From a virus: 22,330 nucleotides of DNA. The notes under the pieces are model-generated. The model was given only the letters and a program-made list of their open reading frames with translations, had not been told where the DNA came from and did not search any database. The position numbers and the translations under genes were made by a program. Location: the IMG/VR virus record IMGVR_UViG_3300031162_001177, positions 1-22,330 of that record. One strand, 5' to 3'. Numbering within the stretch: the first letter of the stretch is position 1; each line of letters opens with the position of its first letter. Positions 9,717 to 15,591 of this stretch are shown here, in pieces.

Positions 9717-11168
9717 CTAAAAGACTTTCACGCCATATTCAAGCTCAAATGCTATGCCATCTGCTAGACCATTTACCATTGGCATACCCTTAATATTTAA
9801 ACTCGTATTGAGTAACATAGGGCAGCCGGTAGCTGCTTTCCATCGCGTCAGGAGTTCGTACAAGCCCCTGTGATTGTCGTGTGTAACCGTCTGCACTCTG
9901 CTAGTCCCATCCACGTGTACAATGGCAGGGAAGTCCTCTGGCTTTGTACATCGCACAACATACTGCATATACGTTGATTCAAAATCAGGCTCGACATCGA
10001 AGTACTCACTTACATGTTCTTGTAGAATAACAGGTGCAAACGGTCTAAACTCTTGTCTACGTTTTATCCTGTTAACTACATCTTTCATCTGGCCGCCGCG
10101 AGGATCAGCAAGGAGAGAGCGATTGCCCAATGATCTGGGTCCAAACTCAGCCTTGCCATTAGCCACACCGACAATGCCTGCTGTTTTAAGTTCTTTAAGT
10201 AATTCATTTACTGGGTACTCCCCTGCTATTTCGTGTCCTAAATAAGGTCCTTGCCAATTCGCTTGCTTTTTTGTATGAGCAAGAATTGCACCAAGCGATG
10301 AGCCAGCATCTCCTGGATTTGGCATTATCCACACATTTTCAAATTGTTCTGTTGCATATCTATTAGCCAAACAATTAAGCGCACACCCGCCCATCAATAC
10401 GAGATTTTCTGACTGAGCCTTTGTTCTTGCACTTGATTTGACTTTAGCTAAAAGCGTTTTGAATTCTAGCTCGTATACTGCCTGAGTAGCTGCTGCAATA
10501 TCGAAATAATCGTCTTCAGTAAGATCAGGTAAAAAGCCTCGACACCCTTGATGAAAATTCAGACCTGGCTCATTGAACATACGGTAAATTTGATAGACAT
10601 ATTTGTTACTGTCTCCATATGCTGACATGCCCATTAAGATGTATTCGTCTTCGTTTGCTTTCAATCCTATTCTATCAGTCATTGCAGAATAAAACAAGCC
10701 TAAAGACTTTGGATAGGTTTCATTGTATACTTTATACAAGGTCGTATCGCTTTTATTACCATGCCATATAGAGGTAGTATCAAACTCACCGATAGCATCA
10801 ATTGTAAGGCAGCTTGCCTCGTTGAAAGGACTTGTATAAAAACCAGCAGCCGTGTGGCTTTTGTGGTGACTCCCCCAGTAAACTTTTGATTTCACACCTA
10901 GACGCTTCAGTTCTCTAGCAGGATTCGTAAACTTGAACCCTTGTCCAGCATACAGTCTCCTAGCAGTTTTTAGCAAAGGATTCTCGTAGAAATGCACTTC
11001 TTCTGGGTAGCCGAAAGATAGCGCGTCTTTGATCATATACTGATTCAAGTGTGGATCATTTTTCACGCCGCTATATCGTTCTGCATGGCTAGCAAACAGA
11101 ATCTCTGAATCGTCCATGACACACATCGATCCATCATGCGCGCCACATGCAATACCCCATCTAATCAT
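9717..11168 (-). CDS. NodU/CmcH-family O-carbamoyltransferase
   Basis: 483 aa. The family moves a carbamoyl group from carbamoyl phosphate, through a carbamoyl-adenylate, to a hydroxyl of a sugar or antibiotic (NodU, TobZ, CmcH). The Kae1-like N-terminal domain has the metal-site HHKSH (101-105), DAIGEFDTTS (124-133), GGCALNCLANR (260-270) and NPGDAGSSLGA (284-294). The YrdC-like C-terminal domain has EFGPRSLGNRSLLADPR (341-357) and LLNTSLNIKGMP (452-463). It is shorter than the usual 540-600 aa but keeps both domains. The ATG overlaps the stop of the 37-residue gene. The acceptor is probably a sugar built by neighbouring genes, by inference. Confidence 0.93.
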   Translation of the reverse strand: MIRWGIACGAHDGSMCVMDDSEILFASHAERYSGVKNDPHLNQYMIKDALSFGYPEEVHFYENPLLKTARRLYAGQGFKFTNPARELKRLGVKSKVYWGSHHKSHTAAGFYTSPFNEASCLTIDAIGEFDTTSIWHGNKSDTTLYKVYNETYPKSLGLFYSAMTDRIGLKANEDEYILMGMSAYGDSNKYVYQIYRMFNEPGLNFHQGCRGFLPDLTEDDYFDIAAATQAVYELEFKTLLAKVKSSARTKAQSENLVLMGGCALNCLANRYATEQFENVWIMPNPGDAGSSLGAILAHTKKQANWQGPYLGHEIAGEYPVNELLKELKTAGIVGVANGKAEFGPRSLGNRSLLADPRGGQMKDVVNRIKRRQEFRPFAPVILQEHVSEYFDVEPDFESTYMQYVVRCTKPEDFPAIVHVDGTSRVQTVTHDNHRGLYELLTRWKAATGCPMLLNTSLNIKGMPMVNGLADGIAFELEYGVKVF

Positions 11169-11274
11169 AAATAAACGGATCTCGTTTCTTGATTTCGGCT
11201 AGACGCTTCTTAACGAGCCGCTTGTGTTTCCAGTTTTGATATTTCTGTTTAATCTTTTCTATTATTTGTTTCAA
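11161..11274 (-). CDS. Hidden 37-residue basic protein ending -DPFIYD
   Basis: The apparent 102-nt gap between the second SGNH gene and the carbamoyltransferase is fully open in one minus-strand frame. Translation from a TTG at 11274 gives 37 residues starting LKQIIEKIKQKYQNWKHKR and ending RDPFIYD. The TTG overlaps the preceding TGA stop (TTGA), and AAGGA lies seven bases upstream, a good ribosome site. The stop overlaps the carbamoyltransferase ATG by eight bases. It is a Lys/Arg-rich amphipathic helix with an acidic-aromatic tail. My impression is that similar short proteins ending DPFIY sit beside carbamoyltransferase genes in other marine phages; I could not check this. Alternatively it is a frameshifted tail of the SGNH protein. 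Function unknown. Confidence 0.72.
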   Translation of the reverse strand: MKQIIEKIKQKYQNWKHKRLVKKRLAEIKKRDPFIYD

Positions 11275-12122
11275 ACTATTTTCCTTATTGCATGTTGTAT
11301 TTGGCTATAGGTGCTCAGTTGACCCGCAGCACCTGGGTGCATCATATCTCTAGCCATTGGCCGTGCCGAACCTTGGATACTAACAAGATCTAATTGCTGT
11401 CCTTGCAATAGCACATTATCTTTGTTCTCCGTTCTGTCAGCAGCATACTGCCAATTATATGTTGGAACCCCTCTTAAATTAAATACCGTATTCGCCGTTA
11501 TGTAATTTTGAAAGACCGCTTGCTGTGCTTCGTGTACATACGGTACATATCTATTACGGTACCATTCTATATCAGCCTCTCGATATTTTGGAATAGAGTA
11601 TTCATTGTCGCTGTCATCATGCTCGCCTTCCTTGCCCACTGAAGGTGAATTAGGGTCTATATGATGCGCTGAATCCGAAGCAAACATTCGCCGGTGATCT
11701 CCAGGCCATTGAAATACAACAAACTTAGGTTTTGGTAAACTATTCTTGTTATACAACACGCTGTTTAATCTTATTATGTCGCCGCCAGTTCCACCTATAG
11801 CTAAATTCATGATTGGTAAGCCGCGCTCCAAAGACAAGTGCGAGTGCCAAAGATCTTCTTCATGTAACCCCACACCTTCTGTGTAACTACAGCCAAAAAC
11901 TAAAATAAATTCATTGTCCTTGAATGTATTTATCGCAGGCGTTCTGTACCCTAGATTATTGAATGTATAAGTTAGCGAGCCATCTGTATACTTAGGCAGC
12001 ATATCATACTCGATTTTGTGCTTTTCGTACTGCTCTTTTTCCCAGGCAGAAGCAAATTCATATGTACCAAATCTCCTAGAGCGCCGCTGTAAAATTTGCC
12101 CTGTTACTATGTTAATTTCCAA
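11271..12122 (-). CDS. SGNH-like hydrolase/acyltransferase-type protein, copy 2
   Basis: 283 aa. The segment FILVFGCSYTEGVGL (72-86) resembles block I of SGNH/GDSL enzymes with Ser79 as nucleophile; NLAIGGTGG (106-114) resembles block II/III; ARDMMHPG (257-264) gives a block V D259xxH262. SGNH proteins remove or transfer acyl groups, often on polysaccharides; which reaction is done here is unknown. It is a clear paralogue of the gene just upstream (shared FGCSxTE, PKFVVxQWPGxxRRMFA, ARDxxHxG). Translation most likely starts at TTG 12122, with AGAGGAG about ten bases upstream; the next in-frame ATG would lose 40 residues. It overlaps copy 1 by 11 nt and the 37-residue gene by four. Confidence 0.75.
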   Translation of the reverse strand: MEINIVTGQILQRRSRRFGTYEFASAWEKEQYEKHKIEYDMLPKYTDGSLTYTFNNLGYRTPAINTFKDNEFILVFGCSYTEGVGLHEEDLWHSHLSLERGLPIMNLAIGGTGGDIIRLNSVLYNKNSLPKPKFVVFQWPGDHRRMFASDSAHHIDPNSPSVGKEGEHDDSDNEYSIPKYREADIEWYRNRYVPYVHEAQQAVFQNYITANTVFNLRGVPTYNWQYAADRTENKDNVLLQGQQLDLVSIQGSARPMARDMMHPGAAGQLSTYSQIQHAIRKIV

Positions 12123-12942
12123 GTTGATATAACTCCTCTGCCCATCTTTTGTTGCTTTCTACTCCGGCGTGAATGAGGTCTCTTGCCGGAATCTCGTCTT
12201 CAAGGGTAAACGGGCTACTATACATGTCAAAATCTCGCAGTAAATAATTGTCCTCACGCACTGCATCATCAGAAAGTTGAAAATGTACTACATCAATTTC
12301 CAGTAACTGCAGTAAATAATGAGATGATGTTATATTATGATATACCTCATAATTACAATGTTCCGTATATGTAATATATCGATTTGTTAGCCACTCTTTG
12401 TCATATTTATCCGTTATCAAATCATGCTGATGGGCTTGATTGCTAGGTTGTATGCTGTTTAATTGATAGCAATCACCATGCAATAACATTTGCGCAAACA
12501 TTCTCCTAAAAGCCCCAGGCCATTGCACAACAACAAATTTTGGTTTTTTTAGTTCCCCAGCGATGACCAATTTTACGAATTGCAGTATATTGGTAGCCAC
12601 AAGATTGGGTGCTGCACCTGATATCGCCAAGTTCATCGAGTCCACACCGAATTTCTCTGCCAGCAAATAACTATAACATTCCTCATAGTTTATTCCTATA
12701 GCTTCGGTATTGCTACATCCAAATGCAACTAAATATCCATCGCCATAATCTCGGAACTCTTTATTACAACGATATCCTGCGCTGTTGTAAGTGTAATTAA
12801 CAGCATCAATTTCCATATATCTGTCTGGCATCGATTCTTTATTTTTTAGCCAGAGTTCTTTACTATCATCCACTTGCCAATTGCTATTAATGTCTGCGCG
12901 TTCAGGGCGAAATATTAATTTATCTTGGTGTATTATTGGCAT
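12112..12942 (-). CDS. SGNH-like hydrolase/acyltransferase-type protein, copy 1
   Basis: 276 aa from the ATG at 12942, which follows the dehydrogenase TAA by one base; an ATG at 12972 would overlap that gene by 29 nt. LVAFGCSNTEAIGI (71-84) places a candidate nucleophile at Ser77, NLAISGA (104-110) follows, and ARDLIHAG (253-260) gives D255xxH258. PKFVVVQWPGAFRRMFA is shared almost intact with the adjacent copy, so the two arose by tandem duplication. No signal peptide, so it would act in the cytoplasm on a nucleotide-sugar or a nascent glycan. Deacetylase, esterase or O-acyltransferase activity are all possible. Confidence 0.75.
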   Translation of the reverse strand: MPIIHQDKLIFRPERADINSNWQVDDSKELWLKNKESMPDRYMEIDAVNYTYNSAGYRCNKEFRDYGDGYLVAFGCSNTEAIGINYEECYSYLLAEKFGVDSMNLAISGAAPNLVATNILQFVKLVIAGELKKPKFVVVQWPGAFRRMFAQMLLHGDCYQLNSIQPSNQAHQHDLITDKYDKEWLTNRYITYTEHCNYEVYHNITSSHYLLQLLEIDVVHFQLSDDAVREDNYLLRDFDMYSSPFTLEDEIPARDLIHAGVESNKRWAEELYQLGN

Positions 12943-12943
12943 A

Positions 12944-14089
12944 TTATTTACGAGTATTTCCGTAGTGTACAACTAACTGATCTGCATGGCTAGAAACGTA
13001 TGTCCTATGAGGATCAAAAATCACACACTGCGGAGAAACATCCGAGACATCATCGTTAGCGTGGACTCTCACTATGACATCTGGTGAGACCGACGTTACG
13101 CGACCGCCGTGTTCTTTTACATAATGCTGCACTAGAAGACTGGGGCTACCGTCAGTATAGTCGACCCCAGCTTTATAAGAGTCTGACGTAAACGTTACAT
13201 ATTGGCCATACTTCACGATCTCCTTTGCCATATTTTCAGCTTGTATATCTCTTGCATTCATGATAGCGTCAAACATGTCATATCCTAAACCAAGATTTTC
13301 TGCCATATATCTCAGAGCAATATTGTCTCTAGGGTGACAGGCACCACCATCACCAAAGCCAGCTTTCATATAAGCTGGACTCATAATTCTATGTGTGCTG
13401 TCAGCTAGCGCCTTTGTTACTACATCAACATTGATATTACCTTGCTTCTGTGCAACGTCTTGTATCATGTTAACAAGGCTCAACTTAGTGCTAATAAAAG
13501 TGTTGTAAAATACTTTGATACATTCACACTCATCCCAAGTACCAACAACAATACGAGGCCGATTCTCAAGAATGCCGTGATAGAAGTATATCAACTCGCC
13601 TACTTCAAGGCTATCTTCGCCATTCTCGCTACCGATCATTACCATTTCAGGATTTACCATATCCCATGCAACCGTCCCCATAGCAATTAGATATGGGTTA
13701 TATAAAAATTTAGCGTTTTTGATTTGCGGTACAATATGAGATCTGACTGTGCCTGGAAGTACTGTAGAAATCAACACTAGAATTTGTCGATCTGTCATAT
13801 AAGAATCGACTTCTTTGATAACATCAACTGCAATACTATAGTCAAAATCCTTAGGTGGTAGATGACCTGTGGGTTTACTGCCACCGTATTCAGGTGAATG
13901 TGGAGTCGGTACTGCGACGAATACAATCATCGCATCCTTAACCGCATCTTCAATGGATTCTTTTTTGTTCACCCTATTTGTTACAATAGTGGAGTCAATA
14001 TCGTAACCATTCACCTCATGGCCTTTCTGTGCCATAACTTCTGCACAAGGCAACCCTAATTTACCTAAACCAATAAATCCTATACTCAT
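12944..14089 (-). CDS. UDP-glucose/GDP-mannose 6-dehydrogenase family protein
   Basis: 381 aa. Oxidises C6 of a nucleotide-hexose twice with NAD+ to a uronic acid. GFIGLGKLGLP (4-14) is the NAD site, VAVPTP (58-63) and STVLPGT (108-114) are family motifs, CIKVFYNTFISTKLS (190-204) contains the catalytic-type Lys192, and GFGDGGACHPRDN (244-256) holds the catalytic Cys251 in the usual GxGGxCxPxD context with His for Phe/Ile. The C-terminal domain is shorter than in bacterial enzymes (about 420-450 aa). AAGGA precedes the ATG. First gene of a run with the SGNH pair and carbamoyltransferase, and divergent from the aminotransferase by 25 nt. Confidence 0.92.
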   Translation of the reverse strand: MSIGFIGLGKLGLPCAEVMAQKGHEVNGYDIDSTIVTNRVNKKESIEDAVKDAMIVFVAVPTPHSPEYGGSKPTGHLPPKDFDYSIAVDVIKEVDSYMTDRQILVLISTVLPGTVRSHIVPQIKNAKFLYNPYLIAMGTVAWDMVNPEMVMIGSENGEDSLEVGELIYFYHGILENRPRIVVGTWDECECIKVFYNTFISTKLSLVNMIQDVAQKQGNINVDVVTKALADSTHRIMSPAYMKAGFGDGGACHPRDNIALRYMAENLGLGYDMFDAIMNARDIQAENMAKEIVKYGQYVTFTSDSYKAGVDYTDGSPSLLVQHYVKEHGGRVTSVSPDVIVRVHANDDVSDVSPQCVIFDPHRTYVSSHADQLVVHYGNTRK

Positions 14090-14114: not shown

Positions 14115-14702
14115 ATGTTCGATGCCATAACCAAATTTGAAAATCAATTAGCCCGCTACACTGGTGCAAAGTGGGTGGTCATGACAGACTGTTGTACGCA
14201 TGCAATCGAACTGTGTTTTATTTATAACAAAGTGTCTAAGACATCATTTACGCCGTACACCTATCTCAGTGTTCTGATGCTTATGCACAAGCTAGATATA
14301 CAGTATAACTTGTTAGACGAGCCGTGTCAAGAATGGATTGGCGAATATTCATTTGATAATACCAATATATGGGATAGTGCCAGGCGGCTTGAACGAAACA
14401 TGTACCGACCAGGTAGTATGCAATGTTTAAGTTTCGGTCATAGCAAGCCGCTTGAAATAGGTAGAGGAGGCGCAATACTACTCGACGATCCAACAGCTTA
14501 CAAGGCATTAAAAGAAATGTCATATGATGGCAGAGACTTGTCTATATCACCTTGGCAGGATCAGAAAGAATTTAGAGTAGGCTATCACTACAAGCCAACA
14601 ATTGAAGAAGCAAAAATCGGGTCAAGCCTACTGAACGAAATTAAAGAACAGAGCCAATTCATAAAATATCCGGATTTAAGAAATGTACGCATCATCACAT
14701 AA
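14115..14702 (+). CDS. Half-size DegT/DnrJ/EryC1/StrS-type sugar aminotransferase
   Basis: 195 aa, only the N-terminal half of the usual 360-400 aa PLP enzyme. Features: KFENQLARYTGAKWVVMTDC, then CTHAIEL (27-33, the family SGTxAL phosphate loop region); FTPYTYLS (45-52); IWDSAR (85-90), with Asp87 where the family has the Asp that contacts the PLP ring nitrogen; and SFGHSKPLEIGRGGAILLDD (106-125), where Lys111 matches the lysine that forms the Schiff base. The GRGG is the usual GEGG. It ends properly on TAA with an orderly helical C terminus, so it looks like a streamlined version rather than a broken gene. It would aminate a keto-sugar. It overlaps the amidinotransferase start by 20 nt. No clear ribosome site precedes the ATG. 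Confidence 0.85.
   Translation: MFDAITKFENQLARYTGAKWVVMTDCCTHAIELCFIYNKVSKTSFTPYTYLSVLMLMHKLDIQYNLLDEPCQEWIGEYSFDNTNIWDSARRLERNMYRPGSMQCLSFGHSKPLEIGRGGAILLDDPTAYKALKEMSYDGRDLSISPWQDQKEFRVGYHYKPTIEEAKIGSSLLNEIKEQSQFIKYPDLRNVRIIT
14219..14226 (-). promoter_or_regulatory. T4-type late promoter box upstream of the dehydrogenase operon, antisense to the aminotransferase gene
   Basis: Exact TATAAATA on the minus strand about 130 nt upstream of the dehydrogenase ATG, inside the 5' part of the divergent aminotransferase gene. The 25-nt intergenic space is too short to hold promoters for both sides, so a promoter embedded in the opposing gene is expected. Confidence 0.45.
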
Positions 14703-15591
14703 CGAATGGGATCCACTAAAACATGTTTTCGTTGGTGATGCTGAAAATGCGCATTGGCCTGTAGACTGCCCCATCTACAGAAAGACCGAAGAAACAACAG
14801 GATGGAAAAATACCCCTGTCCCGGAAGGTCCAGTCGATACAATAATCATAAGAGAAGCTAACGCAGATTTATTTCGCATGAGAGTTGCACTTATGCGCTG
14901 GGCTACCATATGGAAACCAAAGACATTAGATTTTCAGGCTTTCGATGGTATGTATAATTATTGCCCAAGAGACAGAGTGTTGATAGTAGGGGATAGGGTC
15001 ATTGATGCGCCTATGATGTTCCCTACGAGGAGAAAAGAGATAGACGCACTCAAATACGCATTTGATAACGAGATTATAACATGTGACGATCCCGAAGCAA
15101 GATTCGATGCCGCGAATGTTTGCCGGCTGGGAAAAGACTTACTATATCTTGTAAGCGACAGCGGTAACATAGAAGGTGCCAAGTGGTTACAAGAAACACT
15201 AGGTAAAGAGTATACCGTGCATGTTCTAAATGACTACAAAGGGGTTCACATTGACAGTACAATAAGTCCCGTTAGAGAAGGCTTGGTTGTAATAAACAAA
15301 GACAGGGTGAAAAGAGCACCCGAAGTATTTAAAAACTGGGATATTATTTGGCTTGGAAAAGAAGACATAGAAGAACAACCATTTACAAATTACCCATACG
15401 CCAGCAATTATATAGGTCTAAACTTCTTAACAATAAATCCTGAAACAGTTATGTGTGATCCTAAACAGAAAGTGTTGATTGACAGGCTAGATAAATACAA
15501 TGTAGATGTGAGTTGCGTGGATCTGAGACACAGCAGAACACTAGGTGGCGGACATCACTGCACAACATTGGATATTGTAAGAGAAGTATAA
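14683..15591 (+). CDS. Amidinotransferase (AGAT/StrB1-like)
   Basis: 302 aa. The family transfers an amidino group from arginine to an amine, as in glycine amidinotransferase and StrB1 (scyllo-inosamine-4-phosphate). CPRDRVLIVGDRVIDAPMMF (94-113) matches the AGAT segment PRD.lvvvGn.iieaPMaw. FDAANVCRLGKDLLYLVS (141-158) carries catalytic-type Asp142, HIDST (189-193) His189, and GGGHHCTTLDI (288-298) the nucleophile Cys293, so the full catalytic triad is present. It is shorter than AGAT or StrB1 (about 350-420 aa). It sits directly behind an aminotransferase, as expected if it modifies the new amine. Arginine deiminase is less likely because the GGGxHC context and PRD segment are amidinotransferase-like. 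Confidence 0.88.
   Translation: MYASSHNEWDPLKHVFVGDAENAHWPVDCPIYRKTEETTGWKNTPVPEGPVDTIIIREANADLFRMRVALMRWATIWKPKTLDFQAFDGMYNYCPRDRVLIVGDRVIDAPMMFPTRRKEIDALKYAFDNEIITCDDPEARFDAANVCRLGKDLLYLVSDSGNIEGAKWLQETLGKEYTVHVLNDYKGVHIDSTISPVREGLVVINKDRVKRAPEVFKNWDIIWLGKEDIEEQPFTNYPYASNYIGLNFLTINPETVMCDPKQKVLIDRLDKYNVDVSCVDLRHSRTLGGGHHCTTLDIVREV

Follow-up and report, generated by a model that had tools for sequence, protein, structure and literature searches.

The virus record analysed here, a stretch of 22,330 bases taken as a whole and referred to below as the window, contains on its minus strand a 37-codon open frame wedged between the gene for an SGNH-like protein and that for a carbamoyltransferase (CT), and the question raised by this locus is whether so short a frame is a gene and, if so, what its product does beside the enzyme. 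Profile searches place T4-type genes in the window (a gp32-like single-strand binding protein and a PhoH-like protein), along with sugar-nucleotide and modification genes (UDP-glucose dehydrogenase-like and radical SAM). The features of the locus are as follows:

9717..11168, minus strand: CT, 483 aa (PF02543 and PF16861; NodU-type; model like GdmN/TobZ)
11161..11274, minus strand: tail-peptide gene, 37 codons, TTG start, TAG stop (sequence and family conservation)
11164..11181, minus strand: C-terminal tail codons, DPFIYD (DPFIY near-invariant across relatives)
11182..11271, minus strand: codons 2-31, predicted single basic amphipathic helix (AlphaFold2; hydrophobic moment)
11271..12122, minus strand: SGNH-like protein, directly upstream of the peptide gene (GCSYTEG motif)
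11282..11286, minus strand: AAGGA, likely ribosome-binding site, 7 nt before the TTG (sequence)
12112..12972, minus strand: second SGNH-like protein (GCSNTEA motif)

Read along the minus strand from 11274 to 11161, the frame is TTG-KQIIEKIKQKYQNWKHKRLVKKRLAEIKKRDPFIYD-TAG and encodes a basic peptide of 37 amino acids. The order SGNH-like gene, peptide gene, CT gene is closely packed, with overlaps of 4 and 8 bases: the TTG (11274-11272) shares bases with the TGA (11273-11271) of the SGNH-like gene, and the TAG ends 8 nt within the CT gene, whose ATG lies at 11168. These details, which an earlier note on this DNA had listed together with the AAGGA 7 nt upstream, all hold; its remark that an ORF caller would miss the frame is unsupported, as 114 nt exceeds the 90-nt minimum length usual for gene callers. 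The upstream gene that it called SGNH does carry a GCS/GDS-type motif, but both SGNH-like proteins of the window lack a Pfam match, and the assignment derives from the motif only.

Conservation and codon usage provide the first part of the answer. In a first locus set of 80 viral contigs, fetched with the CT protein as the sole bait, a short same-strand frame ending DPF[I/T]Y lies upstream of the CT gene in 75, as had been predicted for short basic proteins ending DPFIY in other phages; in the remaining five, the upstream DNA ends early, 178 to 1858 bases before the CT gene. The nearest relative (L002) has a CT and a peptide that are each 89% identical to those of the window, with an ATG at the homologous start, and the two peptide genes are separated by 13 silent and 6 replacement differences. 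Over 860 pairs of the CT-selected set, the DPFI codons, which lie outside the CT overlap, give a pS of about 1.0 and a pN of 0.007; the selection test that the earlier note had proposed for the frame yields a pN/pS of 0.10 over the last 22 codons in close pairs of the same set, and in a larger set the ratio is about 1.6 for the two shifted frames. Because the motif is also kept where the peptide and CT genes do not overlap (L020, L055, L074, and L077), the CT overlap does not account for it. Lack of conservation of the frame or of the C-terminal motif in related phages, which the earlier note had named as fatal to its proposal, was checked for, and both were found to be conserved. A frame that is open by chance, kept so by the CT overlap and no gene at all, might be expected to be short and basic and to begin with TTG, as this one does; nevertheless, its presence in 75 of 80 loci, the retention of the motif without overlap, and a pN/pS far below 1 leave this explanation with a negligible probability, and the conservation and codon evidence rule it out. 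At the level of sequence, the peptide gene and its family are demonstrably real.

The family is also larger than the sample. Two degenerate motif scans of viral contigs yielded at least 152 distinct frames, mostly encoding peptides of 33-50 residues, in which the motif always occupies the extreme C terminus and is far more conserved than the rest of the peptide. Among the 181 different 22-residue tails tabulated, DPFIY is fixed partly because the search pattern requires it; the CT-selected set, recovered independently of the motif, agrees on DPFIY, with one DPFTY, and DPYIY variants occur in L321 and one of the L332-L411 loci. Under a position matrix, members score +32 or more and the best frame without the motif scores -3. 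The residue after DPFIY may be K, D, E, R, or H, may be missing, or may be followed by others, up to three extra residues in all. Searches of Pfam (E up to 0.01), PHROGs (0.1), and NCBIfam (1) assign the window peptide to no family, and the strongest library-profile matches of other members reach E values of about 0.09-0.1; a peptide family found in many marine and freshwater phage contigs has no convincing match to any library profile. No mention of DPFIY was found in the literature searched; an earlier, unnamed listing of the family in the supplementary tables of small-gene surveys is possible. A tblastn search of a phage collection with three family peptides returned no matches, even with E values of up to 10 allowed; masking of the basic helix by the low-complexity filter is the probable reason. 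Scanning bacterial and archaeal genomes for the helix plus DPFIY recovered only five contigs, all from marine metagenome-assembled genomes, which are taken as phage DNA because they closely resemble the phage loci; a host origin was also considered, and this helix-plus-motif scan gave no sign of a cellular family. A variant peptide directly precedes the CT gene in the single-cell virus contig AG-345-D19. Separately, divergent hydrophobic short peptides ending SFIYEDED directly precede the CT start in L434-L435 and are possibly remote family members.

The gene neighbourhood strongly supports a functional link between the peptide and the CT. Among the matches listed, the CT gene lies within the fetched DNA for 126 of the 152 motif-selected frames, on the same strand in all 126 and directly adjacent in 82; for 18 of the remaining 26 records, the CT gene is elsewhere in the record, always on the same strand, at distances ranging from a few bases to 60 kb. 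Among loci that are partly redundant, overlaps of 4 nt (110 loci) and 8 nt (52 loci) predominate. Such overlaps of stop and start, seen in most loci, would suit a leader frame with a purely regulatory role, one that only couples or tunes translation of the CT and whose amino acids are irrelevant; however, the strong amino-acid constraint alongside free silent change contradicts this idea, in many loci at least one gene separates the frame from the CT gene (direct adjacency is lacking in 44 of the 126, among the matches listed), and the tail persists in fusions and on the unrelated carrier described below, all of which render a leader function very improbable.

In a quick tree, the peptide-associated CTs form one clade with a support of 100; many clade members were found via the peptide, a sampling effect for which two further fetches by CT only correct. 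One of these, on one branch, recovered the peptide in 77 of 80 loci; the other, on another branch, in only 20 of 59. Named phages with CTs outside the clade (P-SSM2, HTVC008M, S-CAM8, and Mosig, among others) have no peptide, and in two records that carry a second, out-of-clade CT (G064 and G065) the peptide stands beside the clade CT only. The CT of C48C1 has no peptide and yet does not fall outside the peptide clade; it sits on a very long branch. Seven loci (L417, L419-L423, and L438) encode CTs 77% identical to the query L130, with the peptide cleanly absent between the same neighbours, and one 154-kb record in a CT-only fetch contains no peptide. Given the clean absences and the count of 20 in 59, the peptide is a usual but not an obligatory companion of its CT clade. 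An in-frame natural fusion of peptide to CT was not seen in these loci. As a separate observation, presence and absence can be seen side by side: L418 has the peptide gene, whereas L417, L419-L423, and L438, which share its upstream gene and have closely related CTs, lack it cleanly.

Profile searches identify the window CT as NodU-type, with matches to PF02543 (Carbam_trans_N, E 4.8e-36) and PF16861 (Carbam_trans_C, E 7.8e-51), and its AlphaFold2 model (pLDDT 94.6) superimposes on GdmN (7vyj) over 467 residues at 2.1 A with a Z score of 42.2. It is thus like the NodU/CmcH/TobZ-type O-carbamoyltransferases (TobZ, GdmN, NovN, and VtdB) in both Pfam domains and in full-length fold (Z about 42), but is shorter (483 aa versus about 570-700) and adjoins a tiny peptide, whereas no such partner is named in the solved TobZ/GdmN-type entries listed. 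Structure comparison also matches its N domain to Kae1/TsaD, enzymes that function together with small partner proteins (Kae1-Pcc1; OSGEP/LAGE3/GON7). As small proteins beside an enzyme with a Kae1-like domain, those partners (Pcc1/LAGE3, GON7, and TsaB) offer an analogy only: no sequence relation to them was found, and the peptide is predicted to be a single helix plus a tail. In 15 representative loci (L288, L198, L191, L127, L219, L132, L159, L143, L117, L218, L197, L194, L124, L167, and L285), the CT is reduced to 311-336 aa, comprising the N domain with no C domain nearby; 13 of these records have no C domain anywhere, and in the other two (G121 and G130), as in the added record G065, a C domain is found in a separate CT of 606-609 aa. 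All 15 loci keep the peptide, mostly with the 4-nt overlap, and the N domain is therefore the more constant companion of the peptide.

For the window peptide, AlphaFold2 predicts one helix, residues 2-31, at a mean pLDDT of 89.7, followed by a free tail of lower confidence. The hydrophobic moment of the helix is 0.46 versus 0.27 for shuffled sequences, and the amphipathic signal is moderately above shuffles (mean z 1.2). The helix adjoining the tail is strongly basic and patterned, and the part preceding it differs among members, being Trp-rich and amphipathic in some (Trp is present in 68 of 96) and acidic in others. As the amphipathic signal is moderate, contact of the modelled helix with a membrane is only a guess.

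Taken together, these features are best accommodated, with a rough probability of 0.45, if the peptide is a small helical adaptor of the phage NodU/TobZ-like CT clade, furnished with a C-terminal docking tail. The DPFIY tail would dock on the Kae1/TsaD-like N domain of the CT, a step given slightly less than even odds; the variable N-terminal part, in many members a Trp-rich amphipathic helix that might rest against a membrane, would place or tune the enzyme; and the CT might thereby act on a glycan produced by the neighbouring sugar-nucleotide and SGNH-like genes. Support comes from the 75 of 80 and 77 of 80 CT-selected loci, the same-strand linkage, the overlaps, and the single clade; from the retention of the peptide by N-domain-only CTs, whose remaining domain resembles Kae1/TsaD; and from the operon neighbours that occur fused to the tail. 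If this reading is correct, phage carbamoyltransferases gain a dedicated peptide partner. It is weakened by the CTs 77% identical to L130 and the 154-kb record that lack the peptide, by the tail-bearing SpeD of T7-like phages whose records yielded no CT, by the moderate amphipathic moment and the acidic N-terminal part of some members, by the solved relatives TobZ and GdmN, for which no such partner is listed, and by a phage 5-hydroxymethylcytosine CT (MetaGPA) that works alone in vitro (PMC8670742). The latter belongs to the same superfamily and is described there as co-occurring with thymidylate-synthase-type genes, in contrast to the sugar-nucleotide genes that neighbour the CT of the window, and the available text mentions no peptide for it (PMC8670742). 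The partner or chaperone of the CT put forward in the earlier note is well supported in its genomic link, which is on the same strand in every case found, with overlapping starts and stops, and to one CT clade; the role itself is less secure, given that some close CTs lack the peptide and that SpeD bears the tail in T7-like phages with no CT found, and no observation speaks for a chaperone rather than an adaptor or docking role.

The tail is not confined to the standalone peptide. It also ends an SGNH-like protein (L122), a GatZ-like protein (L166), and SpeD (S-adenosylmethionine decarboxylase; L268), always with a free C terminus. The SGNH-like and GatZ-like carriers have homologs that are usually encoded immediately before the peptide and therefore look like fusions of operon neighbours. 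SpeD carries the tail in 12 of 16 relatives, L486 being counted among them via its full-length 100% match; tailed examples fall within L478-L490 and at L500:17976-18464, one of them ending DKIERLKAKDPFIYE. No CT was found in the SpeD-tail records, which are fragments of 31 kb or shorter, and in one of them the genes appear to be ordered as in a T7-type phage. Apart from these, close SpeD relatives in L488 and L491-L493 end EV[VM]YD instead, and L153:5966-6184 (also L217) encodes, directly downstream of speD, a 72-residue Cys/His-rich protein ending KKRLEDLKKRDPFIYK, possibly a metal-binding carrier of the tail.

Such carriers suggest a different account, in which DPFIY is a portable docking tag, needed once per genome, whose receptor would be not the CT but some host protein or a widely shared phage protein; any protein could then bear the tail, and the CT operon would merely be its commonest home. 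With rare exceptions, a record of any size up to 374 kb contains a single tail, regardless of which protein bears it (G064, with a further copy 8 kb away, and G113 have two), and this is the chief argument that the receptor may not be the CT. The diversity of carriers, the SpeD-tail phages with T7-like virion genes and no CT found, and a strictly C-terminal tail far better conserved than the rest point the same way; nevertheless, linkage to a single CT clade, on the same strand and with overlapping genes, that persists across very wide divergence would be unexpected of an unrelated function, phages with only out-of-clade CTs have no tail, and the SpeD records are fragments. On balance, the portable tag with its separate receptor is rather unlikely, though it is a serious rival to docking on the CT and the leading one; only tentatively might one common receptor be proposed to recognise the DPFIY tag of aquatic phages in both T4-like and T7-like phages. 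Were the tag indeed portable, phages would have moved it between enzymes.

By comparison with CT adaptor function, the idea that the peptide is a substrate, that is, an acceptor or carrier (akin to a glycan primer or amino-group carrier) that the CT cassette modifies at its Tyr or its C terminus, appears improbable. The near-invariant Tyr, the free C terminus, and the small, single-copy nature of a peptide encoded in an operon of modifying enzymes would befit such a role, but the last residue varies, making a C-terminal conjugation site unlikely, and the fused carriers are enzymes themselves. LysW-type amino-group carriers are small proteins with a C-terminal EDWGE motif; the peptide resembles them in being small with an invariant C-terminal motif, but ends in DPFIY plus a variable residue rather than in EDWGE. 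Elsewhere in the window, within the sugar-gene cassette, plus-strand positions 14683-15591 encode a protein that resembles the arginine deiminase family weakly, below the threshold, and that is possibly amidinotransferase-like.
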